Of a DNA stretch of 35,438 nt, positions 586 through 20,933 are shown piece after piece; within the stretch, counting starts at the first letter, position 1; each line of letters begins with the position of its first letter. The notes under the pieces were generated by a model. That model did no database searches, was not told the DNA's origin, and saw only the letters and a program-made list of their open reading frames with translations. The DNA comes from a virus: positions 1-35,438 of the IMG/VR virus record IMGVR_UViG_3300030117_005456; one strand, given 5' to 3'. Both the position numbers and the translations under genes were made by a program.

Positions 586-730
586 CTAACCCGAGCAAAA
601 AGAAATGTAGGTTGGTGTTTAGGTTCTGAACCATGTTGCAGGTGAACGAACCAACAGCATCAGCCTATGTTTCGATTGATTCTAAACCTTGATATTATTA
701 AATTTACAACGCACTAAGGGAGAAAAAACA
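586..730 (+). promoter_or_regulatory. Structured leader upstream of the Cas4-like nuclease
   Basis: This 145-base gap is much richer in G and C than its surroundings and has no credible ORF. Possible pairings are 605-611 with 664-670 (seven pairs, two G-U), 612-616 with 650-654 enclosed by it, and a small GGTT/AACC hairpin with a CTG loop at 622-632. GTTTAG 617-622 can also pair with CTAAAC 682-687, which crosses the first two helices, so it would form a pseudoknot or an alternative fold. TTTGCT 578-583 with AGCAAA 594-599 is a further short stem without a T tract. GGTTC-T-GAACC is also a perfect 5+5 palindrome, so a protein operator is equally possible. I do not recognise a known riboswitch or a tRNA. 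Confidence 0.4.
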
Positions 731-3319: not shown

Positions 3320-3351
3320 ATGGTAATGAAAAACTAAGGTTATATTGATTG

Positions 3352-3357
3352 TATAAT
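3352..3357 (+). promoter_or_regulatory. Possible -10 element (TATAAT)
   Basis: A perfect TATAAT lies in the gap after the SSB-like gene and just before the paired leader. No TTGACA-like -35 box is found 16-18 bases upstream (the bases there are A-rich), and TATAAT occurs easily by chance at this composition. It is a weak candidate for an internal early promoter. Confidence 0.22.
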
Positions 3358-3374
3358 GCAAGATAATGTAAATT

Positions 3375-3447
3375 AGAGATGAGGGCGGTTGTATATATTC
3401 ACTATCTACTTCCTCTCATCTCTCCTTAGTGCCTCTTGGCCGCCCTC
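3375..3447 (+). promoter_or_regulatory. GC-rich switch-like leader with two exclusive stems
   Basis: AGAGATGAG 3375-3383 is exactly complementary to CTCATCTCT 3415-3423, extendable to 11 pairs with one G-U. GAGGGCGG 3381-3388 is exactly complementary to CCGCCCTC 3440-3447. The two helices share bases 3381-3383 and otherwise cross, so they must compete or form a pseudoknot. The loop contains TCTCCTT near 3420-3427, complementary to the AAGGA ribosome site of the next gene (3458-3462). No T tract follows, so it is not an ordinary terminator. It is in the right position to control translation of the 82-aa gene. Confidence 0.45.
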
Positions 3448-9090: not shown

Positions 9091-9147
9091 CCTCCTTATT
9101 AATGCTAAAAGTAGGAAGGGTTGGTATTTAACTAGCCCTTCTTACTT
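9081..9147. terminator. Bidirectional terminator between convergent gene blocks
   Basis: Two tandem hairpins sit where the early and late blocks meet. The first is TTTAGCAT 9081-9088 with ATGCTAAA 9102-9109 (8 pairs, 13-base loop), covering the early stop codon. The second is 9109-9120 with 9136-9147 (12 pairs with one G-U, 15-base loop), followed on the + strand by TTCTTTTT, a rho-independent tail. On the - strand the same stem is followed by a short T run (TTTTAG). The second stem includes the stop codon of the 944-aa gene. This fits a shared terminator preventing read-through both ways. Confidence 0.75.
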
Positions 9148-11976
9148 CTTTTTATCCAATTCCCTCATGTACTTTAACATTCTATAATTAACAGGCTTAG
9201 CACCAGATTTCTTTTTTCTTCTTGTCCCTGTCACATCTAGCCATTTTTCACCAGCTATATCAAAAACAGGTTTTCCTTCATAAATATCAAATGGTAAATT
9301 AATTTTAGAAGTAGGGTACAAAGATAATTCATTAAAACCAACATCAATTGCATTTTTAATAGGATTTCTTTCGTTTTCAAATAACATTGGAATATGTCTA
9401 TTGTAAGCTCTTTTGCCAAATGCACTCATAGAAATAAGATTGTTAAGCATTTTAGTTCTGCTTCCAGTATGAGTTAAATCATCATCATATTTGTAACCTT
9501 GAACAGCATATAAATACTCATGCCAAGCTTCAGGTTCTGTTTCATTAATCATACCTATAGACATTCCTAGGTCAATCATATCCCCAAGAAGAGGGCCTCC
9601 AAATGTACTAATAATTGGCCCTTTGCCATAAAAAGCTTCATTAATTTTTTCTGGGTCATTAGAAAATAAAGTAGCCCATTGTGAAATTCTTTTTGCTGTG
9701 TCGTGCTCTACTAAATTATCAATATCCAATCCCATAACAATATAAGCCATTAAGGGAGCTAAACCATAAGCTATTCCCATTTTCATTGCTTGGTGGACTC
9801 CTTGCATTTCACCAAAACTTGCACCAGACCTAATATCAGCAGAAGCTTCTTTATAGATAGAAGTATTTCTTTCTAAAAATTCCATTCCATAATGTTGAAA
9901 TTGAAACATAAATCTTGTTATGTTCCCATATTTACCCAATGATTTAATATCGCCTCTCATAAGTTTGGATTTAGCATAATCAGCATAATCAAAATGATTT
10001 ACTAAAACCATATTTTTTGCATAATTAGTAGCTATTTCATTAGCCCTAGTTTCTAAATATTGCTTTTTATTTGCTACTTGAGACCTAAATTCAGAACTTT
10101 CCATTAATATTTTATGTAAACTTCCATAAGCAACTTTAAAAGTATGTTTTCTATTCCAATTTTCAGCAGCTCTGTGCAATACAGATGATTTTTTTGAAAC
10201 CCAACTCATACCTTCTGCTATTTTATGACCAAAATGTTCTTCTTTATATTGTATGTTACCATCTTCATTCATATACCTAGATTTAAACATGCTAGGTTTT
10301 TCTTTAATACCACTTTCTAAAAGTTCTGGTGTTATTTCTTTAAATAAAAATCCAGCTTCATCTAATATTTTATCAGCTTCTCTTACTCCACCCTCACCTT
10401 TAATACTATCAAAATAATTAACCGCTGCAATGCTTTTAGTAAATCCAAATCTTATATAATCCAAAGCTCTTTGAGTCATGTTTCTAGCTGCTCCACGAAC
10501 ATTCCATCCAAGTTTGGATGTAAATTCAAAAGCAAGTAATGTTTTCATTGCTAATTGAGCCGATTCTGACATTTTAGTATCACCATTAGCTGCTTTATGC
10601 ATATCTGCAATAAAATCTGAAACATTGGTCATGTATTGAGTTGGGCCTTTATCGCCATCTCTATACATTTTTAATACATCAAGTCTTGCATCCATAAAAG
10701 CTTCTTCTAAAAAAGCAGAAGTATTAAAATGATTTATATCGTCTATGTACCCTTTAACAACATCAAAAAAGTTTCTTGAATATTCTGGAGCATATTCTTG
10801 TTTTCTACTTTTTGCGTGATTAGTAACCCATTCATTTATTGATTGTATATCTTCTTTGAGAGTGGATGTTTTTCTTAATAATAAATCTTCACCAGAAGAA
10901 TCTAATTTTTTTAATCTTGGCAATAACCCTTCCATGAAGGTAGCATTTAAGTCTCTTACATAATGAGGAAAAAATCCCTGTTCATATCTAGGCATTAACT
11001 CTCTATTTAATCTTTCTCTTGTTTCTTTTAATAATTTAACATTCTCACTTTCTATTCCTCTGTTAAATTTTAATCTTTTTATTTTACTATTGATAACAGA
11101 GTTTATTCCTTTTTTTAAATTATCATATTGATTATCCATCATGTTATTATATTTCATTAAAGGGTCTGCATATCTTGTGTCCATTCCTAATTCAGACATG
11201 ATTTTTTCTAAAAATTTAACTTCATTTATTTTTAATAAAGCTTCACCGTTATCAACTTTTTCAAGGAATTTTTTAGAATCTTTAATTCTCATAGGTCTAA
11301 ATTCACCGCTTTCAATTTTTTCCCTATATTTCATTAATATATCTGGCATACCAGTTTCAATTAATACAATAAAATCATCAAATGCTTTTAATTTTTTATT
11401 GCTATCTACAAATTCTGATAATTCTTTTCTAGCAGCTGAAATTTCTCTATTGTTTTGTTTGTCAATAGCTTTAATAAGATTTAAATCTAATTTTCTTAAT
11501 TTTTTTATATCCCTATTAAAAATAGCTTTATCAATAGGCCCGGTTACTTTAGATATAACTTTAATCATATCTGTTATTTCTTTAAAGTCTTCAGCTGATT
11601 TCATTGTTCTAACTTTATCTTGACCAGATACATCTTGCAATCTTGAAAGCATTGAACCTATCGCTGGGTCTCTTTTACCAAAAGTAGTACCAGTCCAAAA
11701 CAACTTTGCAAAATCATTACTTGCAATGTCGCCTTGTTTTACTCTTTTATTTAATCTATATAAACTTTCAGTAAATTGTTTTATTTTTCCAGGTGTTAAA
11801 AGTTTTTCACCTTCATCTAATATAGCCCATTTTAATGGAACATAAAATTCAGATTCCCACATTTTAAACATAGCTGCATGAGGATTTTTAAAATTACTTA
11901 AAGTTTCTTTATCCCCAAGCCATGTATTTACTGCATTTATTAATTGAGATTTTTTTGTTGCTTTATTACAATCCAT
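9142..11976 (-). CDS. 944-aa probable internal virion (ejection) protein
   Basis: This large, helix-rich, charged protein ends the late cassette. It has no enzymatic motif I can identify. Features are a long helical N-terminal half and a segment LGWNVRGAARNMTQ near residue 489. An RFMFQFQHYGMEFL segment lies near 688-700, and a hydrophobic stretch (MGIAYGLAPLMAYIVMG) near 733-750 could insert in a membrane. The N-x-RN-T-Q and FQFQ style recalls the C-terminal parts of phage polyvalent/ejection proteins, though this is an impression rather than a match. It starts on the stop of the giant gene as TAATG with only a weak ribosome site, so its synthesis is probably coupled to that protein. A co-packaged, co-injected partner is the likeliest role. 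Confidence 0.6.
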   Translation of the reverse strand: MDCNKATKKSQLINAVNTWLGDKETLSNFKNPHAAMFKMWESEFYVPLKWAILDEGEKLLTPGKIKQFTESLYRLNKRVKQGDIASNDFAKLFWTGTTFGKRDPAIGSMLSRLQDVSGQDKVRTMKSAEDFKEITDMIKVISKVTGPIDKAIFNRDIKKLRKLDLNLIKAIDKQNNREISAARKELSEFVDSNKKLKAFDDFIVLIETGMPDILMKYREKIESGEFRPMRIKDSKKFLEKVDNGEALLKINEVKFLEKIMSELGMDTRYADPLMKYNNMMDNQYDNLKKGINSVINSKIKRLKFNRGIESENVKLLKETRERLNRELMPRYEQGFFPHYVRDLNATFMEGLLPRLKKLDSSGEDLLLRKTSTLKEDIQSINEWVTNHAKSRKQEYAPEYSRNFFDVVKGYIDDINHFNTSAFLEEAFMDARLDVLKMYRDGDKGPTQYMTNVSDFIADMHKAANGDTKMSESAQLAMKTLLAFEFTSKLGWNVRGAARNMTQRALDYIRFGFTKSIAAVNYFDSIKGEGGVREADKILDEAGFLFKEITPELLESGIKEKPSMFKSRYMNEDGNIQYKEEHFGHKIAEGMSWVSKKSSVLHRAAENWNRKHTFKVAYGSLHKILMESSEFRSQVANKKQYLETRANEIATNYAKNMVLVNHFDYADYAKSKLMRGDIKSLGKYGNITRFMFQFQHYGMEFLERNTSIYKEASADIRSGASFGEMQGVHQAMKMGIAYGLAPLMAYIVMGLDIDNLVEHDTAKRISQWATLFSNDPEKINEAFYGKGPIISTFGGPLLGDMIDLGMSIGMINETEPEAWHEYLYAVQGYKYDDDLTHTGSRTKMLNNLISMSAFGKRAYNRHIPMLFENERNPIKNAIDVGFNELSLYPTSKINLPFDIYEGKPVFDIAGEKWLDVTGTRRKKKSGAKPVNYRMLKYMRELDKKK

Positions 11977-14900
11977 TATTTAATACACCCACTCATTTCA
12001 GCCCAATCTTCAGCATCTTTATTTGTATGGTCAAGTAATCTTCCGTCATGAGCTGTGTTAAGTTCTCTTTCAAGTTGTTGCAATTTATTATATTTTGAAA
12101 TTAAACTAGATTCATTTACTTCTAATTTAAGACCTTTATCAGCAGCTGCTCTTTGTAAATATTTAAATCCTTTTGACAATTTAAAAGAATCATGTTGTTG
12201 TATTGGTACAACAGATTTTGATTCCGATACTGCATTTATTTCAGTTTGAACCATTTTTATATACATATTGTCTAATTTAAGCCTTCTCTCTATAAAATCA
12301 TAAGGGTCTAAGTAAACATTTGTAGCTAAGTCTCTATTTAATAAATCTATTTCATCAAGAAATTTTTGAAATCCAATAGAAAACTCATCACCAGCTAAAT
12401 TTGCTGTTTCTTGATAAAAATCAAGAACTGAATTATTCATTATGTTTAATGTATGTCTTGGAAACATATTCCTTGTCCAATTTATATCAGTATAAGAACT
12501 TAGCTTTCTTTCTAAATAAGAATCAAATTTACCTAATCCGTATTGTCTTACATCATTTTCTCTTGAAGTAAAAAGATTGTGATTTCTATCAAAATAGCCT
12601 CTATAATGATTTTCTGATTCAATTAATTTTGTTAATAATATTTGAGAAGGTATTTTTATATCCTCTGATTCACCAACAAGTTTTCTAGCTACTCTTATGG
12701 GGTTTTCTTCAGATGAAAAATCTTTAAAAGCAATTTCAGTAAGAACTCTTATCCCCATTCTAAATCTTTTTGAATCAACATATGGAATAGGAACTACTCT
12801 ATTATTAAAAACTCCAATTTTTTTTCTATTTAATGAAGGAGACATAAAAGCTAACATAAATTCTAATCCATATTGCTCAGTTTTTTCTTTTAAAAATTCT
12901 ACTTGCCATTTATAAAAATCATCAGTATCATATCTTTCTAATTGCTTTTTTAATTCTTTATCTTTAATTACTGTTTTAGCTCCAAATTCAAGTATGTCTT
13001 TTATGCTTCCATGGTCTCCATAAATTTTTCTTCTTAAATCTTTAAACATTGCCAAATCATCTTTAGCATTGCCTTCAAGCATTTGATAAAAATTATCAAA
13101 TTTATAGCCACCTATTAATTCAGATTTTAATAAAGAATGTATAGAATGATAATATATTGTTGATTCTGTTAATTCTTTTCCTTCTGCAATTAAATCTAAA
13201 AATTCATATTTTTGAGGGTCTTTTATATTTACTCTTCTTCCATATTCAGTATTTATTTCTGATTGAAGTTTATTTATAACATATTTTAAAGATTTAATTT
13301 TTTTATTTTTCCATTCTTGTTTGTATTTAGACCTAGCAATTTCGTTTATTTTTCTACTTAAATAAACAACACTTCCAACTTTTTTATTATGGCTTAAAAC
13401 TGCAGTAGTTAATTTTTCATTATGTTTGTCAGCTGATTCTTTATACGATTCCATTATCATATCATTATACCAATCATCAATCTGTATTTTATCTTCTCCT
13501 AGTAATCTAAAATCTTGTTTTTCTTCAAAATGATTTTTTCTAGCTAATTGAACAATTAATTGGTCTATATATGTTCCATTTGGATTTGTTGTTTCTTCAC
13601 TAATAAATCTTTCTGCATTATTACGAACATATTCAAAAGGGTCTTTGTTTAAGAATGTTCTTCTATACCATTTTCCTTTTTGTGGTTCTTTTTCAGTAAC
13701 AGCTCCAAATATTCTTTTTAATTCTTTAAAATCATTCCCACTTAATTTTCTTTCTTTAGTTAATTTTCTATATACTTTATTTTGAATATCTTTATGAAAA
13801 TCTATAAATCCCTGACCAGCTTGCATAAAATCATCATAAGACATTCTTCTAACATCAGCCCCATCATAAACATCTTTACCAGTTGCTTGTAATATTGTTT
13901 TATTATAATTATCCATTAAGGATTTAATAATTTCTTTTTCAGCTTTAGTTAATTCAATGTTTACATCTTCTGTCCACTTACCATCTTTTTTAACCATTCT
14001 TGAAAATATTCTTATTCTTTTATTATTAGAAGTTCCTTTTTCTTGGATGTCTTTTCTTTGATTAAATGATAAATTATCTGGCCTTTCTGATTGCGTTATT
14101 AGTGGAAATAAGAAATTATCTTTCCAATTAAATATATCATTTGCAATATTTGGATTTAATTTATTTTTACCATCAACAACATATTGCATTTCTAAAGCAC
14201 TTTGTATAAAAAAATCTATGTTTTTACTATCAATAGTAATTACTCTTTCATCACCATTTTTACTATCTGTTGTTCTAAATAAAATTCCAGGCCCATCAAC
14301 AGTCCCATCTTTATTTTCTCTTCTATAATTTGACCAAGCTTCTGATTCTTCTGGGCTAGCTGTCCAATTTTTATTAGAAAGCATATCTAAATAATTTAAT
14401 TGTCTTGGAGTTTTTTGAACAATGCCTATCATTTTTTTATAAGCATCTGCATTGCCCATAGATTCTATAATATTTTCACTTTGAGTTTCTGTATCTTGTA
14501 AAAACGTAAACGAAGCTGGAGTTTTCCATTTCTTTGGGTCTATTCCTTGAACCCAATATTTATTAGTTCTTTTAATATGGTCAAACATATAATCATTATG
14601 AGCAAAGAAATAATCTACTTTATCAGCATCATAATCACCTTCATATATATTTACTATATCAAGACTATTAACCATTGTAGAATTACCATATCCCTTATCT
14701 AAAAACCCAGCTAATCCAAGCAATGTAATATCATTAGGTCTTGTTCTTGGATTTCTTCTTGAAATAATACCAATTTGATATTTTCTACCAGTTGCTTTGT
14801 TAGCATCTTTTAAAAAGTTATGCACACTCCCAAGTGTGGAATTTTGAACAGATAAAGATAGTTCGTTCTTTTTATCTGATTCACCAACTCTTTCTTTATA

Positions 14901-17900
14901 ATCATCAAGAAATTCATCAACAGTCATAATTCTTTCATTATCAACTATTCTTATAGTTCTTCCCTCAAGGTCTCCAAGTTTTGTATCTTGTTCGTGAAAT
15001 GGGAGAGCTAACTCACCTCTCATTAACATATTGCCTTGTTTATCTACCAATGTAGGCAATAATCTATGATTTCTCATGTTTCCATTTCTATCTAAAAATC
15101 TCTGAGCATTCTGTATTATATAAGATTGCCCACCATATCTATTGCTTGTTACATTGCTTAATTCACCATGCCTTCCAGAACTTCTATTTGTAATAGACCT
15201 AGTGTTATTTATTAATCTATCTATAAATGTATTAAAAATTTTATTTTTTGTTTGATTGTCACTAAAGCTCATAGGATTAGCATTAGCATGATGTTCTAGG
15301 AAAAGATACATATTATTGATTGTCTGTAAAGAAGAAATACCATCATCATTTTGCATTTGTCCATTTGGTAACAATTCATCCATCATAAATTCCCTCATAG
15401 CGACAGAACTTCCAACAATATCTTCTATTGATTGTATCGCAAAGGATATATCTTTTTGCATTTCTTGTATTTTTAAATATCCTTCTTCAGCATTATGATA
15501 ATTAGCGTCAGCTGGTGAATCTTTAGCAGATGTAATAGAAGCATCTTTTTCTGGTTTTAATCCTATTGCATCTATATCTACAAATCTAATTTGATTTGGT
15601 TTTAAAATATTTTTACTAGTTGTTTTTAATTTATCAAGGGATATATTTAATATAGATTCATCATCTTTGTTTGAATTTCCATCAATATATTTTTCATCAT
15701 ATACCTTAGCTCCAGATTTTGTAAGTAAAATATCTAAATTATTTGCTTTAAGAAAATTTTCTAACCTTGGGTCATGTATAAACAACGTTTTACCAAGTAA
15801 TAATGTTTTACCTTCTCCCATAGATGAAATAACTGGTTTTATTGCATTTTTAGAATAAGGATTATGCCCCATTAATGTATGGTATTCCATCATAGCATCT
15901 TCTGTTAAGAAAGATATACTATCAAATGCACTAGCTTCTTCATGAGCAGTTCCTAAAATGTTTTCAAAAGACCATCCTTCTAAATCATAAATATCTTTAT
16001 ACTTATCTACAATTTGCTGAACTTCTGTTCTTATATTTGCATTATTATCATCATCCCAAATAGCAATAGAATACTTACCTTTCTTATTATATATTCTATC
16101 TTTTAAAAGATTGCCAGCTTCATCACCATCATTAATTAACAACCTTGCTTCTGCTAATGATAAATAATAATCAGAATCACCTCGTATAAAATTCTTTGTA
16201 TTTACAAGTTTTACCCTACTAATAACTTTATCAATTTCATCAGCGTCATTATTATTTAGAATTTCTTTAAGTTTTATATTAGAATCACTTCTTAACATTC
16301 TTTCAACTACTAACAATCTTGCTATTGATTCATAATCATAATCTGCAGAATACCTATCTTTGTCTGTGTCTTTTATTCTTTCTAATAAAGCTTCTATATT
16401 TGTTGTATCTTCATATAAATCTTTATTTCTTTCGTAAAAATTATTAAACTCTTCTGCTAGAATTTTTCTATCTTGCCCTGTTATAATTATACTATCAAAC
16501 TCTGGAACAAGATTTAATCTAATTAAGGGGTCTTTTCCAATAGAAACAACATCATCTTGAACTCCTAAAGATTCAAAAACTTCATCTTCTTTATCTTTTA
16601 TTCTGTTGTCTTTTAATATACCATCTACTATTGAATGATTTAGCAAATCATTTATTATTTGATTTTCTACTATCTTTACTTCATTTCGCATCCATTCTGG
16701 GAAATTCTCAGCTTTAGAAGTAAGATTAACAATCCTAGGTTCCATTCTTGAATTTTCTGGATTAAAAGGTTTTATTAATACATTATTATCAAATAAATAA
16801 TGTTTAATTTTTAAACCTGTAAATAATTCATATATTGGATTAGTTTGATGAAATTCAGGCTTGTCTGTAAATTTTATACCAGTACCAGCTACTTCAACAA
16901 CTTGGACTTCTACTTGCTTTCTTCTTCCAAAAAATACTTGAGTAGCATCTTCTAATATTTGATTTCTTAATCTTCCCCCCATACTTTCATATGGTATAGT
17001 TTCTTGTTTTTTATTTCCATCTGCATCTGTAATAATTCTTGTCGCAACTAAATTATTAATTAAATTAGATATAGCATTTCCTTTAAGAATGGCATTTGGA
17101 TTTTCTATTTCTGGAAAGTTTTTTGTTAATTCATCAAATTTCTTTATTTGACTTTCTTGACTCATTAAAGAATAATCTCTGTATTCTTTAAAATTTCCAT
17201 CTGAATCATTAATTATTACTTTATATTTTCTAAAAAATTCACCAACGCTCATTGATGGATTTGCAACATGGTCACTAGAATCATTTAAAAATCTTGGTTT
17301 CGATATTTGTTTTTGTTCAGAAATTTTTTGATTAATAAAGCCTTCTGTGTATCCAAATTGTCTTAATGATTTATCAACTTTTTTCCAATAATCTTCAGTA
17401 AGTATTTCTTTTTCTTCTACCTCAATTCTTCCACTATCTTCATTTATTTTTAATACACCTAAATCAAAAAGCATATTTTGAATTTTTGCTTGATTAATTT
17501 CTGGGGCAAGTGCAATATAATTTTTAATTCTATCTGAATAAAATCCTAAACCATTTTGAGTAAGTTTTTCAAGAACAGTGCCAAGTGCAACATTTGAATC
17601 ATAAGTATTTCTACCTAATGCAGATTTTTTCATTTCAGCTTGTAAAATAGGGATTTCCATAATTCCGACATCAATAGTTTCTTTTGATATTTCCACTAAT
17701 CCACCAGATTTATTTGCAATTTCAGATATAAAATTATTGTATTTCGTTGAAAAATCATCATTACCAAAAATTTCAATTCTTTTTAAAATAAAATTATTTG
17801 AAGTACCCTCTGGTTTTAAATTATTTTCTCCAAATCCAGAAGAAACAGCTTGTAAAACAAAATCTGTTTGACCTCCAGATAATCTTGAATCTTTAAATCT

Positions 17901-20900
17901 TTTAGTGTTAAGTATATTGATAAGGTATTCGTAATAAAAACTATCTAATTTTTTTACATCTAATCCAAAACCTTGCAAAGTTTTCTTTAATCTAACAAAT
18001 CCATCTTTATTTACAATTGTATTGCTAGATGTTAATTTGTCTGGAATATTTATAGAAGATTGCATTGTTAATACTTGACCTAATATTCTTTTCATAGAAG
18101 CTTGTTCTTCTTTTGAAACATCAGCTTTAACATCTTTAGAAAATTCTATTTGTTTTACACTTTTTATAATATTCCCATCTTTATCTATAAGGCCAGCTCC
18201 TTGCAAAGCTCCTAACAATTTTTGTCTTCCATTAAATTCTGGACTAAATATTTCTTGAATACTTTTAGAAACTGAAATTGCTTTGTTTTTTACCATACTC
18301 GGTAAATAATCCATGTAATCAGAATATCTAAATTCCCTAGAGACAAGGTCTTTCATTTCAAATGTTTTATTTACAGATTGTTCTGAATTTCTAACTATTT
18401 CATATATTTTTCTTAAAGATGCTTCGTTTTTTAGTTCCATTACATTTGCATTAGAACTTGTTTGAATAGCCTCTAACCCACTTGATAAAGATTTAATAAT
18501 AGATTGAAGACTCATTTTCATTTTTTCAACTTCATTTACAGCGTCATCTCCAGAACCAAGAAATTCAAAATCACCTTTTCTAATTTTATCTTTTAATTTT
18601 TTGTCTATTATTATTGTTTGTGGAGTAATAATCTTATCACCAGTAGTTGTTGTAAAGAACCCAGCTAAATCATCAAATTCACTTTCTTTATCAGCTACAT
18701 CAACAATTTTTTTAATAATACCAAGCATTTCATTTTCAAAATTTTCAGTTGCTTTTATTGTTGATTCTTCTTGCAAATCACGAAGTCCTTTCATGTCATC
18801 TTTCTTTATACCATGAACTTCTTCATACTTTTTAAGCATTGCATTTGCTTCTTTAACTGTTATTGCATCTAATGTTTTAGCAGTGTGGAAATCAGAGTTC
18901 ATTGCAGTAACAAGTTCTTGCAATATTCCATAATCTTCACTTTCCATTTGCATAGAGACTCTTACACTTTTTTCACCAGCTGGAACTGCAAAAGCATCCA
19001 TTTCCCTACCTTCAGCTTCATCGTTTGTAGCCAATCCATTTTCCACTAACCAATCTTGATATTCTTTTTTTCTTGAAGCTTTGTCAAATCTAGACCTAGC
19101 AATTGGAAAATTTTCATCTATATAAAAATTAGAATTTTTCCAATCTGGGTCTCCACCTAATATTTTAATACCTTCACGAATCCTATTTACATCTGTATTC
19201 ATATCCCATTTAGAAACATTGTCCTTTCTTTGGGTGTATGCTCCTATCATTAAATTTGTGAATACATCCCATCCGTCATAATCTTCGCCATATCCTCCTA
19301 AAAATTCACCAGTGTTCCAAGCATCTTGGGCTATCATACCTGCGTTAAAAACCATACCTCCATATAACATTCTAGGCCATTCTTGCGCAAAACTTCTAAA
19401 TGGTTCTTTTAAAGATTCACTTAATAAATCTCTAGCATATTGATTTTTTTCTTTTAAAAGATAATCCGTAACTTCTTTTTTATAATTACCACCAAGAACC
19501 TGTGTTAATTCTTTATGTAAAGATTTAATTCCATCTTCAGCATTTTCATAAGGAGTTCCACCTTGAGTTAAATCTATTTCTTTTTCAAACTTTCCTTTAC
19601 CAAATTTAACATGATGAGGTCTTCCATTTCTCCAAGCGTGATTTCCAAAATAAAATAAATCTTTGGCAAGCGGACGTCTTTCTTTTCCAGCATATGGATT
19701 TGATTGCCTCCAAGTTCTTATAGCTGATGCAAAATCAACTCTTGAATTTGCCATTTTACCTAATGGTTTAAATATAGCAGCTCCACCTGACAATCCTACA
19801 CCAGTTAACATTCCAAATAAAGTATCTTCAAAAAGTTGTCGACTAGAAAAAACATCAGAAAAAGATTGACCTTGCTCTCTTGCATAGTTCCATTGATTAG
19901 AGAGAGAAAATGCTCCATCAATAAAACTATATACAAAAGCATCATTTAATAATTGACCTGCAAATCTACCTTTTCTTCCAGTTCCATACATTACTTGACC
20001 TAATTGAAGCATGTTTTGTATTGGAACTCCTTTTTTCATCATTGTGTCAAACATACCTCTCATTATAGAAGCTTCAGCTTGAGTTATTTTACCTAAAGCC
20101 ATTTGAGATTGTATTAATACTTCAGATTCTTCTTTTAACGCTTTATTAAATGTTTTTTGCTTTAGAATAGGGTGCATTCTACTTTTAGAAGCGACTTGAG
20201 TATATTTTGAAGTTCCTAATTTTATAGCATTTTTAGATAAACCTTCTTTAGCTGCCCATTGCTCACCAGCCTTAGTTATTTGCTTTGTTGATTCAGTAGA
20301 AGCTTTATCTCCTATTTTTTTCTTAAAAACTTTTTTAGCAACTGGAAGAGTTGCTTTTGTAACAATATTTCCAGCTACTTTAAAAGGAAGACCTTTAACA
20401 AAACCTGCAAATGAACCTATGGCTGAACTAACTTTACCAGCAGCTAGTTCTTTTCTAGCTTCAGTTCTTTCTCTATATTCTTCTAATTCTTCGGGGTCTA
20501 CTCTTCCCAAAGTTTGTTCTAATAGAAAATCTTTTGTTCCAAATGTTGCAGTATCTACAAAAGCATCTAAACCTGCAAAAATAATCGCATCAAGATTTTC
20601 TCCAGTTTTATAAAGTAAAGATTTTTCTTCTTGAATTGGAGAATCTTCTTCTTGAAGAATATCAGCTTGTTCCATAATGTCAAGCATTGTTTGTGGATTC
20701 AAATCATTAGGTAAAGGTGGTTTTTCTTGATTTGGTTGATTTGGATTTGAATAAGTAACTCCAGTTGGATTTGCTAAGCTTCTTGAATTTCCACCTATTG
20801 CTTTTTTAGCTCTAGATGTATCTATTTCACTATAATAGTTTATTATTTCTTCTGGAGTCCAAGAAGGAGTTATAGTCTTATCTTCATCGTCAAACAATGA

Positions 20901-20933
20901 ATTATATAGAGATTTTTGAGGATTTAAAGGCAT
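11976..20933 (-). CDS. 2985-aa giant protein: candidate virion-packaged single-chain RNA polymerase
   Basis: I infer a double-psi beta-barrel (DPBB) RNA polymerase carried in the virion. Near residues 2059-2107 the order is R-R-N-P-R-x-R-P-N-D-I, about 30 residues, then YEGDYDADKVD, with D2100, D2102 and D2104 forming DxDxD. This copies the layout of the catalytic beta'-like barrel (R-x-P then DFDGD) in cellular enzymes, QDE-1/YonO-type and crAss-phage polymerases. Upstream, GKTLF (K1715) and SGAK (K1743) could be the paired lysines of the beta-like barrel; SSGRHG lies at 1918-1923. The first ~600 residues contain hydrophobic segments (around 330-340 and 375-390) more like an ejection protein. 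About 880 residues follow the active-site motif. It starts by TAATG overlap with the 397-aa gene, and the only ribosome site is weak. An EF-hand-like calcium loop is the main alternative for DxDxD. No T7/N4-type polymerase motif was seen. Confidence 0.62.
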   Translation of the reverse strand: MPLNPQKSLYNSLFDDEDKTITPSWTPEEIINYYSEIDTSRAKKAIGGNSRSLANPTGVTYSNPNQPNQEKPPLPNDLNPQTMLDIMEQADILQEEDSPIQEEKSLLYKTGENLDAIIFAGLDAFVDTATFGTKDFLLEQTLGRVDPEELEEYRERTEARKELAAGKVSSAIGSFAGFVKGLPFKVAGNIVTKATLPVAKKVFKKKIGDKASTESTKQITKAGEQWAAKEGLSKNAIKLGTSKYTQVASKSRMHPILKQKTFNKALKEESEVLIQSQMALGKITQAEASIMRGMFDTMMKKGVPIQNMLQLGQVMYGTGRKGRFAGQLLNDAFVYSFIDGAFSLSNQWNYAREQGQSFSDVFSSRQLFEDTLFGMLTGVGLSGGAAIFKPLGKMANSRVDFASAIRTWRQSNPYAGKERRPLAKDLFYFGNHAWRNGRPHHVKFGKGKFEKEIDLTQGGTPYENAEDGIKSLHKELTQVLGGNYKKEVTDYLLKEKNQYARDLLSESLKEPFRSFAQEWPRMLYGGMVFNAGMIAQDAWNTGEFLGGYGEDYDGWDVFTNLMIGAYTQRKDNVSKWDMNTDVNRIREGIKILGGDPDWKNSNFYIDENFPIARSRFDKASRKKEYQDWLVENGLATNDEAEGREMDAFAVPAGEKSVRVSMQMESEDYGILQELVTAMNSDFHTAKTLDAITVKEANAMLKKYEEVHGIKKDDMKGLRDLQEESTIKATENFENEMLGIIKKIVDVADKESEFDDLAGFFTTTTGDKIITPQTIIIDKKLKDKIRKGDFEFLGSGDDAVNEVEKMKMSLQSIIKSLSSGLEAIQTSSNANVMELKNEASLRKIYEIVRNSEQSVNKTFEMKDLVSREFRYSDYMDYLPSMVKNKAISVSKSIQEIFSPEFNGRQKLLGALQGAGLIDKDGNIIKSVKQIEFSKDVKADVSKEEQASMKRILGQVLTMQSSINIPDKLTSSNTIVNKDGFVRLKKTLQGFGLDVKKLDSFYYEYLINILNTKRFKDSRLSGGQTDFVLQAVSSGFGENNLKPEGTSNNFILKRIEIFGNDDFSTKYNNFISEIANKSGGLVEISKETIDVGIMEIPILQAEMKKSALGRNTYDSNVALGTVLEKLTQNGLGFYSDRIKNYIALAPEINQAKIQNMLFDLGVLKINEDSGRIEVEEKEILTEDYWKKVDKSLRQFGYTEGFINQKISEQKQISKPRFLNDSSDHVANPSMSVGEFFRKYKVIINDSDGNFKEYRDYSLMSQESQIKKFDELTKNFPEIENPNAILKGNAISNLINNLVATRIITDADGNKKQETIPYESMGGRLRNQILEDATQVFFGRRKQVEVQVVEVAGTGIKFTDKPEFHQTNPIYELFTGLKIKHYLFDNNVLIKPFNPENSRMEPRIVNLTSKAENFPEWMRNEVKIVENQIINDLLNHSIVDGILKDNRIKDKEDEVFESLGVQDDVVSIGKDPLIRLNLVPEFDSIIITGQDRKILAEEFNNFYERNKDLYEDTTNIEALLERIKDTDKDRYSADYDYESIARLLVVERMLRSDSNIKLKEILNNNDADEIDKVISRVKLVNTKNFIRGDSDYYLSLAEARLLINDGDEAGNLLKDRIYNKKGKYSIAIWDDDNNANIRTEVQQIVDKYKDIYDLEGWSFENILGTAHEEASAFDSISFLTEDAMMEYHTLMGHNPYSKNAIKPVISSMGEGKTLLLGKTLFIHDPRLENFLKANNLDILLTKSGAKVYDEKYIDGNSNKDDESILNISLDKLKTTSKNILKPNQIRFVDIDAIGLKPEKDASITSAKDSPADANYHNAEEGYLKIQEMQKDISFAIQSIEDIVGSSVAMREFMMDELLPNGQMQNDDGISSLQTINNMYLFLEHHANANPMSFSDNQTKNKIFNTFIDRLINNTRSITNRSSGRHGELSNVTSNRYGGQSYIIQNAQRFLDRNGNMRNHRLLPTLVDKQGNMLMRGELALPFHEQDTKLGDLEGRTIRIVDNERIMTVDEFLDDYKERVGESDKKNELSLSVQNSTLGSVHNFLKDANKATGRKYQIGIISRRNPRTRPNDITLLGLAGFLDKGYGNSTMVNSLDIVNIYEGDYDADKVDYFFAHNDYMFDHIKRTNKYWVQGIDPKKWKTPASFTFLQDTETQSENIIESMGNADAYKKMIGIVQKTPRQLNYLDMLSNKNWTASPEESEAWSNYRRENKDGTVDGPGILFRTTDSKNGDERVITIDSKNIDFFIQSALEMQYVVDGKNKLNPNIANDIFNWKDNFLFPLITQSERPDNLSFNQRKDIQEKGTSNNKRIRIFSRMVKKDGKWTEDVNIELTKAEKEIIKSLMDNYNKTILQATGKDVYDGADVRRMSYDDFMQAGQGFIDFHKDIQNKVYRKLTKERKLSGNDFKELKRIFGAVTEKEPQKGKWYRRTFLNKDPFEYVRNNAERFISEETTNPNGTYIDQLIVQLARKNHFEEKQDFRLLGEDKIQIDDWYNDMIMESYKESADKHNEKLTTAVLSHNKKVGSVVYLSRKINEIARSKYKQEWKNKKIKSLKYVINKLQSEINTEYGRRVNIKDPQKYEFLDLIAEGKELTESTIYYHSIHSLLKSELIGGYKFDNFYQMLEGNAKDDLAMFKDLRRKIYGDHGSIKDILEFGAKTVIKDKELKKQLERYDTDDFYKWQVEFLKEKTEQYGLEFMLAFMSPSLNRKKIGVFNNRVVPIPYVDSKRFRMGIRVLTEIAFKDFSSEENPIRVARKLVGESEDIKIPSQILLTKLIESENHYRGYFDRNHNLFTSRENDVRQYGLGKFDSYLERKLSSYTDINWTRNMFPRHTLNIMNNSVLDFYQETANLAGDEFSIGFQKFLDEIDLLNRDLATNVYLDPYDFIERRLKLDNMYIKMVQTEINAVSESKSVVPIQQHDSFKLSKGFKYLQRAAADKGLKLEVNESSLISKYNKLQQLERELNTAHDGRLLDHTNKDAEDWAEMSGCIK

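Follow-up and report, generated by a model that had tools for sequence, protein, structure and literature searches.

The question raised by this locus is what kind of element stands between an early gene and the DNA-repair nuclease operon that follows it in the same direction. The window is the whole stretch of DNA, from an uncultured phage, that was analysed (35,438 nucleotides), and the region in question lies at positions 586-730. From the sequence comparisons described here, we hold with moderate confidence that this region holds a copy of a structured-RNA module that is optional and exchangeable and that occupies a variable slot, after the early gene's stop codon and ahead of the nuclease operon's promoter. 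This module would probably shape the 3' end of the upstream transcript. The features of the locus are as follows (relatives are given L numbers):

112-585, + strand: upstream gene of 157 aa, co-directional (ORF; no Pfam or PHROG match)
578-599, + strand: small hairpin TTTGCT...AGCAAA, overlapping the upstream gene's stop codon (read directly; a minor feature)
602-619, + strand: 5' arm of the 18-bp outer stem (folding, pair conservation, cross-type covariation)
620-655, + strand: variable loop domain, or 'cargo' (deleted in L007, replaced in L032)
656-673, + strand: 3' arm of the 18-bp outer stem (folding, pair conservation, cross-type covariation)
676-704, + strand: promoter-like element, TTGATT (676-681), 17-nt spacer, TAAATT (699-704) (recurrence before the nuclease gene)
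716-722, + strand: Shine-Dalgarno-like AAGGGAG of the nuclease gene (read directly)
731-1507, + strand: gene for a PD-(D/E)XK / Cas4-like exonuclease, first of its operon, ATG at 731 (Pfam PF12705, E 8e-10; phrog_1706, E 3.5e-20)

We observed that the plus strand of 586-730 folded with an MFE of -37.2 and a z-score of -2.99 (1/200 shuffles was as good), while the minus strand, with a z-score of +0.51, gave no fold better than chance. The fold on the plus strand is a single continuous stem of 18 bp (602-619/656-673) that contains five G-U pairs and encloses a loop domain of 36 nt. A helix at 605-611/664-670 had been proposed in the first-pass annotation; the pairing was correct, but its placement was incomplete, as it forms only the middle of this longer stem. 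The same annotation had described the region as GC-rich, and this agreed with the base counts (0.38-0.41 over 551-700, against 0.22-0.36 in the preceding 100-base windows).

The stem was retained among relatives. Seven distinct sequences make up the type-A set, to which the window belongs (the window, L002, L003, L005, L006, L007 and L032), and all 18 pairs were intact in six of them, with 17/18 in L032. The small hairpin at 578-599 was left out of these pair counts, as the window has a 4-nt insertion there; it is retained in L014, where it lies outside the coding sequence. The outer 14 pairs were also aligned across types A, B1, B2, C and D, using 13 rows that became 12 distinct ones once identical rows were merged (near-copies within a type were left out). 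In this alignment 95.1% of 164 cells were paired, against a shuffle mean of 87.7 (0/2000 shuffles), and there were nine double-change cells (0/2000 shuffles) and five double-change pairs (35/2000), figures that are supportive and are not probabilities, since the shuffles ignore relatedness. Taken with the fold z-scores and the G-U pairs on one strand, this covariation supports 602-619/656-673 as a real RNA structure. The earlier suggestion of a structured RNA is thus supported, with covariation across relatives seen in the cross-type stem. At the gathering score, Rfam 15 (4227 families) gave 0 matches in the window and 0 in 20 relative loci, and at E 10 there was no credible match in 500-800 of the window or in 1930-2080 of L139. 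A tRNA/tmRNA search found none. The element DNA gave no more than chance-level matches in isolate phages, and a single match within the window's own record.

The remaining pairings that had been proposed for the region were not supported. Helix 612-616/650-654 can pair in the window, in competition with the 18-bp stem, and it was intact in only one of the seven type-A sequences, the others keeping three to four of the five pairs. The mini-hairpin GGTT-CTG-AACC, with 4/4 pairs in the window, kept 3, 3, 3, 2, 0 and 1 of 4 in L002, L003, L005, L006, L007 and L032, respectively. The competing pairing 617-622/682-687 was complete in the window (6/6), with 5, 5, 5, 5, 4 and 2 of 6 in the other type-A sequences; its 3' side lies inside the promoter spacer, and that spacer is conserved no matter which hairpin stands upstream. 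Of these seven sequences, only the window has the mini-hairpin and the two competing pairings in full, so the pseudoknot and the N4-type promoter that had been read into this region are unsupported.

The element had also been described as a leader before the nuclease. The stem ends at 673 and the -35 begins at 676, a gap of 2 nt, and the hairpin therefore sits upstream of the predicted promoter of the nuclease and would form the 3' end of the transcript that comes from the gene before it. A leader is not supported, given this position and the complete absence of the hairpin from 17 of 51 distinct upstream regions. The block TTGAYT-N17-TAAATT precedes the nuclease in most relatives (L127 is without the block). 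Over 504,774 bases of the window and its relatives, some of them near-identical, TTGAYT-N16..18-TAAATT occurred 55 times: 46 times just before the nuclease, five times before the next operon and four times elsewhere. Within the promoter-like element, 689-706 is a constant 18-mer, TTGATATTATTAAATTTA; a search of the 57 loci and the window, allowing at most three mismatches, found it only before the nuclease, and once per locus searched. A longer form of this 18-mer was found in 44 stretches of viral contigs. Judged by its sequence, the block is read as a sigma70-like promoter, and it may alternatively be the promoter of a packaged polymerase. Relatives of the nuclease were found in viral contigs, at 56 loci (by profile, the best 80 of 91); a DNA and protein search of isolate phages (50,697 phage records) and a search of the GTDB species genomes gave none. 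Several different genes occupy the gene position before the nuclease among these relatives.

The next operon begins with an arrangement of its own:

3345-3374, + strand: second promoter-like element of the same kind, at the start of the next operon (motif match)
3376-3445, + strand: leader of the next operon, capable of an H-type pseudoknot, GAGATGA/TCATCTC with GGGCGG/CCGCCC (covariation)

The leader pairs 3376-3382 with 3416-3422 and 3383-3388 with 3440-3445, and in 13 sequences 169/169 cells were paired, with double changes in four pairs. A near-complementarity of 3422-3433 to the nuclease ribosome-binding region (711-722) was considered and dropped, as L018 keeps the stretch while its own ribosome-binding region differs; judging from these sequences it is probably due to chance. 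In the window we also noted a protein of 2,985 aa (11976-20933, - strand) in which EGDYDADKVDYF, near 14610-14645, resembles the DxDxD motif of two-barrel virion RNA polymerases; this is motif evidence only, and the protein gave no significant profile match. Two-barrel virion RNA polymerases with this motif are described in PMC10770324, where AT-rich promoters are proposed for the enzyme of P23-45.

We further compared what stands upstream of the nuclease in the relatives, sorting the elements by eye into types A to J. Among 51 distinct upstream regions with the promoter block, 34 had a folded element (of about ten sequence types) and 17 had none. A sense z-score of -2 or lower was seen in 26 of the 51, all of them from the 34 with an element and none from the 17 without; on the antisense strand, 13 of the 51 reached this value. 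The sense z-score was below the antisense one in 28/34 element-bearing regions, but also in 14/17 element-less ones, so the strand asymmetry alone is weak. Most element-less relatives have an upstream ORF that extends to or into the promoter, and in 16 of the 17 this ORF ends 34-77 nt before the nuclease (224 in L044, by the ORF rule used). A survey of 625 intergenic windows between co-directional genes gave z below -2.5 in 112 on the sense strand vs 62 on the antisense strand, with a p of 1.5e-10 in a paired test, a value that is too small because the windows overlap and the loci are related.

Close relatives were also compared in pairs. L012 and L011 have a nearly identical nuclease and upstream gene, and L012 has about 145 nt more, cleanly inserted between matching flanks and containing a hairpin; over the wider contigs their main blocks are 88-97% identical, and further insertions and replacements differ. 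L014 and L015 (nuclease 99%) have both flanks in common, including the stem base, with different loop domains. As compared with L005, the loop domain is gone in L007 and exchanged in L032. The element type was the same in 13/24 pairs with a nuclease identity of at least 0.95. Type A was found only in the close relatives of the window, and the E motif only before the nuclease, apart from one contig of 309 kb (L142). Since relatives have other hairpins or none in this slot, the hairpin looks optional and exchangeable, and not like a fixed leader of the nuclease. For the L013 element, a resemblance to a hammerhead or box C/D RNA was considered by eye and dropped, as L017 and L049 break the motif.

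Two modules, B2 and F, recur in other intergenic places. B2 has the conserved core GGTG..NCNCGNGN..GTTGTAACTATCCA, and 7/18 pairs of its consensus show double changes. It lies before the nuclease in L010, L021, L033, L101, L103, L104 and L106 and at other places in L024, L028, L126, L131 and L134. The B2 model gave no match in the window, and the window's type A is thus not B2. A pattern scan for B2 returned 12 stretches. Four of them lay on contigs in which B2 had been found before (L130, L133, L088 and L091), and L131 and L134 were new B2 copies; those of L128, L129, L132, L135, L136 and L137 appeared by eye to be chance-like matches inside other sequence and were dropped. We also noticed by eye that the 8-nt NCNCGNGN is self-complementary and that its arms change together (GCACGTGC, TCTCGAGA, GCTCGAGC; with G-U, ACGCGTGT and GCGCGTGC) around a constant CG in L010, L021, L028, L033, L101, L103, L104, L126 and L131, L106 departing from this; the stretch is a possible kissing or dimer site.

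Module F was found before the nuclease in L035-L039, upstream in L022 and directly before uvsX in the T4-like L139-L141; in L139 (1975-2050) it lies between a gp32-like and a RecA/UvsX-like gene. It has three stems, with 96.8% of 155 cells paired and 12 double-change pairs (0/500 shuffles), and a possible pseudoknot of 3 bp is uninformative, since its pairs never vary. A search of GTDB genomes for the F motif gave none. Both modules have long invariant cores. Literature searches gave no description of these elements among the matches listed, and the RNA families that have covariation support (F, B2 and the pseudoknot leader at 3376-3445) had no match in Rfam 15; one of them, F, is shared with T4-like phages, in which it stands beside recombination genes. 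Two further observations concern the same neighbourhoods. L022 (2630-2970) and L106 (2640-2950) have three stem-closed elements in a row upstream of the nuclease, in the manner of a small array, and L098 (5830-6317) has about 490 nt without a called ORF, with a repeated CTAGACTCGGCAAGTCAATG, that is missing from its close relative L068.

We also evaluated whether the element could be a terminator, using a score of U-tract and stability with a cut-off of zero. A d score above zero, which reflects a U-rich tract just after the stem, is the cut-off for an intrinsic terminator. By this formula the window hairpin scored -14.8 and the loop-less L007 -2.0, near the cut-off, and only two of 38 element regions were above zero. 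Median scores were -26.6 among the elements and -35.0 on their antisense strands, as against -42.1 in 16 regions that lack an element. As a positive control, we used a hairpin of the window itself:

9109-9147, + strand: ordinary U-tailed terminator hairpin of 17 bp at the convergent early/late junction (score, pattern scan)

This hairpin scored 24.5, and those of three other convergent junctions 4.1, 9.0 and -12.3 (3/4 above 0). A terminator pattern scan detected the 9109 terminator and none at 586-730. The window hairpin is stable, and by this score its stem is not followed by a proper U-tract. Since the elements mostly score below zero whereas the convergent junctions mostly score above it, the 602-673 element is not a typical terminator. 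Ordinary terminators do exist in these phages, and the element is nevertheless closer to one than an element-less stretch is.

An ordinary intrinsic terminator of the upstream operon is therefore unlikely, even though a co-directional stop codon precedes the hairpin and a promoter follows it, its 5' flank is A-rich and its 3' flank moderately U-rich, and the loop-less L007 comes near the cut-off that 36/38 elements miss. Rather less probable is an operator or riboswitch-like leader controlling the nuclease gene. The element is directly upstream of the nuclease operon, module F stands directly before uvsX in L139-L141, and long transcripts from upstream would carry the element before the nuclease; against this, it lies upstream of a conserved predicted promoter, has no Rfam match, keeps none of the alternative pairings proposed for it, and is missing from a third of the distinct regions (17/51) and replaced by unrelated sequence in others. 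The clean insertion in L012 relative to L011, and the same module in unrelated places, would suit a mobile hairpin of the REP or IS200-end kind, inserted in the form of DNA, whose fold as RNA would be incidental. This we regard as highly improbable, given a one-strand fold with G-U pairs, changes from G-U to G-C or A-U, and neither a common end sequence nor a target duplication seen. A single-stranded DNA hairpin promoter of the N4 type, serving a packaged polymerase, is barely credible: the window does have the GGTT-CTG-AACC hairpin and the phage encodes the 2,985-aa DxDxD protein, but this hairpin is absent in L007 and L032, the giant protein carries a two-barrel motif and is not an identified T7/N4-like polymerase, and AT-rich promoters are proposed for the two-barrel enzyme of P23-45 (PMC10770324).

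A possible though tentative alternative is that the element is a trans-acting noncoding RNA, processed from the upstream transcript, that acts on its own, for example by inhibiting a host RNA-binding or defence protein or by serving it as a decoy or sponge, the rapid swapping of loops reflecting an arms race. The high variability of the slot, in which modules are cleanly gained, lost or replaced, would fit this, as would the invariant cores and covarying stems of modules unrelated to one another (12 double-change pairs in F, seven in B2) and the recurrence of modules outside the slot and side by side; on the other hand, type A is known only in close relatives of the window, and many relatives have no module in the slot. 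More doubtful still is the wider proposal that these phages have slots and arrays set aside for small stem-closed RNAs, a large and rapidly changing set that is cassette-swapped between near-identical genomes and shared with T4-like phages; the window hairpin would then be one cartridge of an arsenal acting on host factors.

The exchangeable module at the end of the upstream transcript is the reading that we prefer. A polymerase coming from the upstream genes would transcribe the module, which would fold as the 3'-terminal structure of that transcript, giving a protected or nuclease-processed 3' end and perhaps weak termination. In this way the upstream transcript would be kept apart from the operon, whose own transcription would begin anew near base 710 and give a short leader without structure. 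Sequence turnover would arise by recombination between the conserved flanks, as proposed for the promoter/stem-loop cassettes of T4-type phages. The plus-only fold, the covarying stem, the adjacent promoter block, the presence, absence and swaps among relatives and the modules elsewhere all point in this direction. Against it stand the poor terminator scores and the dispensability of the element as a 3'-end element; the invariant cores of B2 and F also count against a transcript-end role, because a mere transcript-end hairpin would not need them. If the reading is true, a plain-looking leader is a place where RNA parts are gained, lost and exchanged on a short time scale, and matched full, empty and swapped pairs are at hand for direct tests.

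Among known systems, the RNase III processing hairpins of T7 are irregular and long, lie between co-directional genes near promoters and have little sequence conservation. The window element may be likened to them in all these respects, the difference being that its presence is optional in the window's phage group. In phage intrinsic terminators, too, a sense-oriented hairpin follows a stop codon; the window element differs in its lack of a proper U-tract and its 36-nt loop domain, and other modules differ in their conserved cores. The early promoter hairpins of bacteriophage N4 (PMC4496689) resemble the short inverted repeat with a 3-base loop in the window, but the latter is unconserved (4/4 pairs in 1/7), present as a single copy and found with a candidate polymerase of a different type. 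The pseudoknot operator of T4 gene 32 (PMC3014915) is comparable to the 3376-3445 leader and bears no relation to 586-730.

The closest known form appears to be the PeSL (promoter early stem-loop) cassette of T4-type phages. These cassettes are reportedly the subject of Arbiol 2010 and Comeau 2014. They are cited in PMC4503421 and PMC3950731. In such a cassette a stem-loop stands beside a promoter between genes and is tied to sequence exchange between related phages. As to T4-like relatedness, the late-block proteins of the window gave no Pfam or PHROG match at E 0.001, and weak matches or none at E 1. Whereas PeSL cassettes occur in several similar copies per genome, the constant block is found here once per locus, before one gene. 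In the window's group it is the promoter block that stays constant and the stem-loop, without a terminator score, that changes; the hairpin itself is swapped between fixed flanks. By analogy, then, the locus would be like a PeSL cassette in its layout, with an intergenic stem-loop adjoining a promoter (673 vs 676), and not a member by copy number, its variable part being the hairpin.
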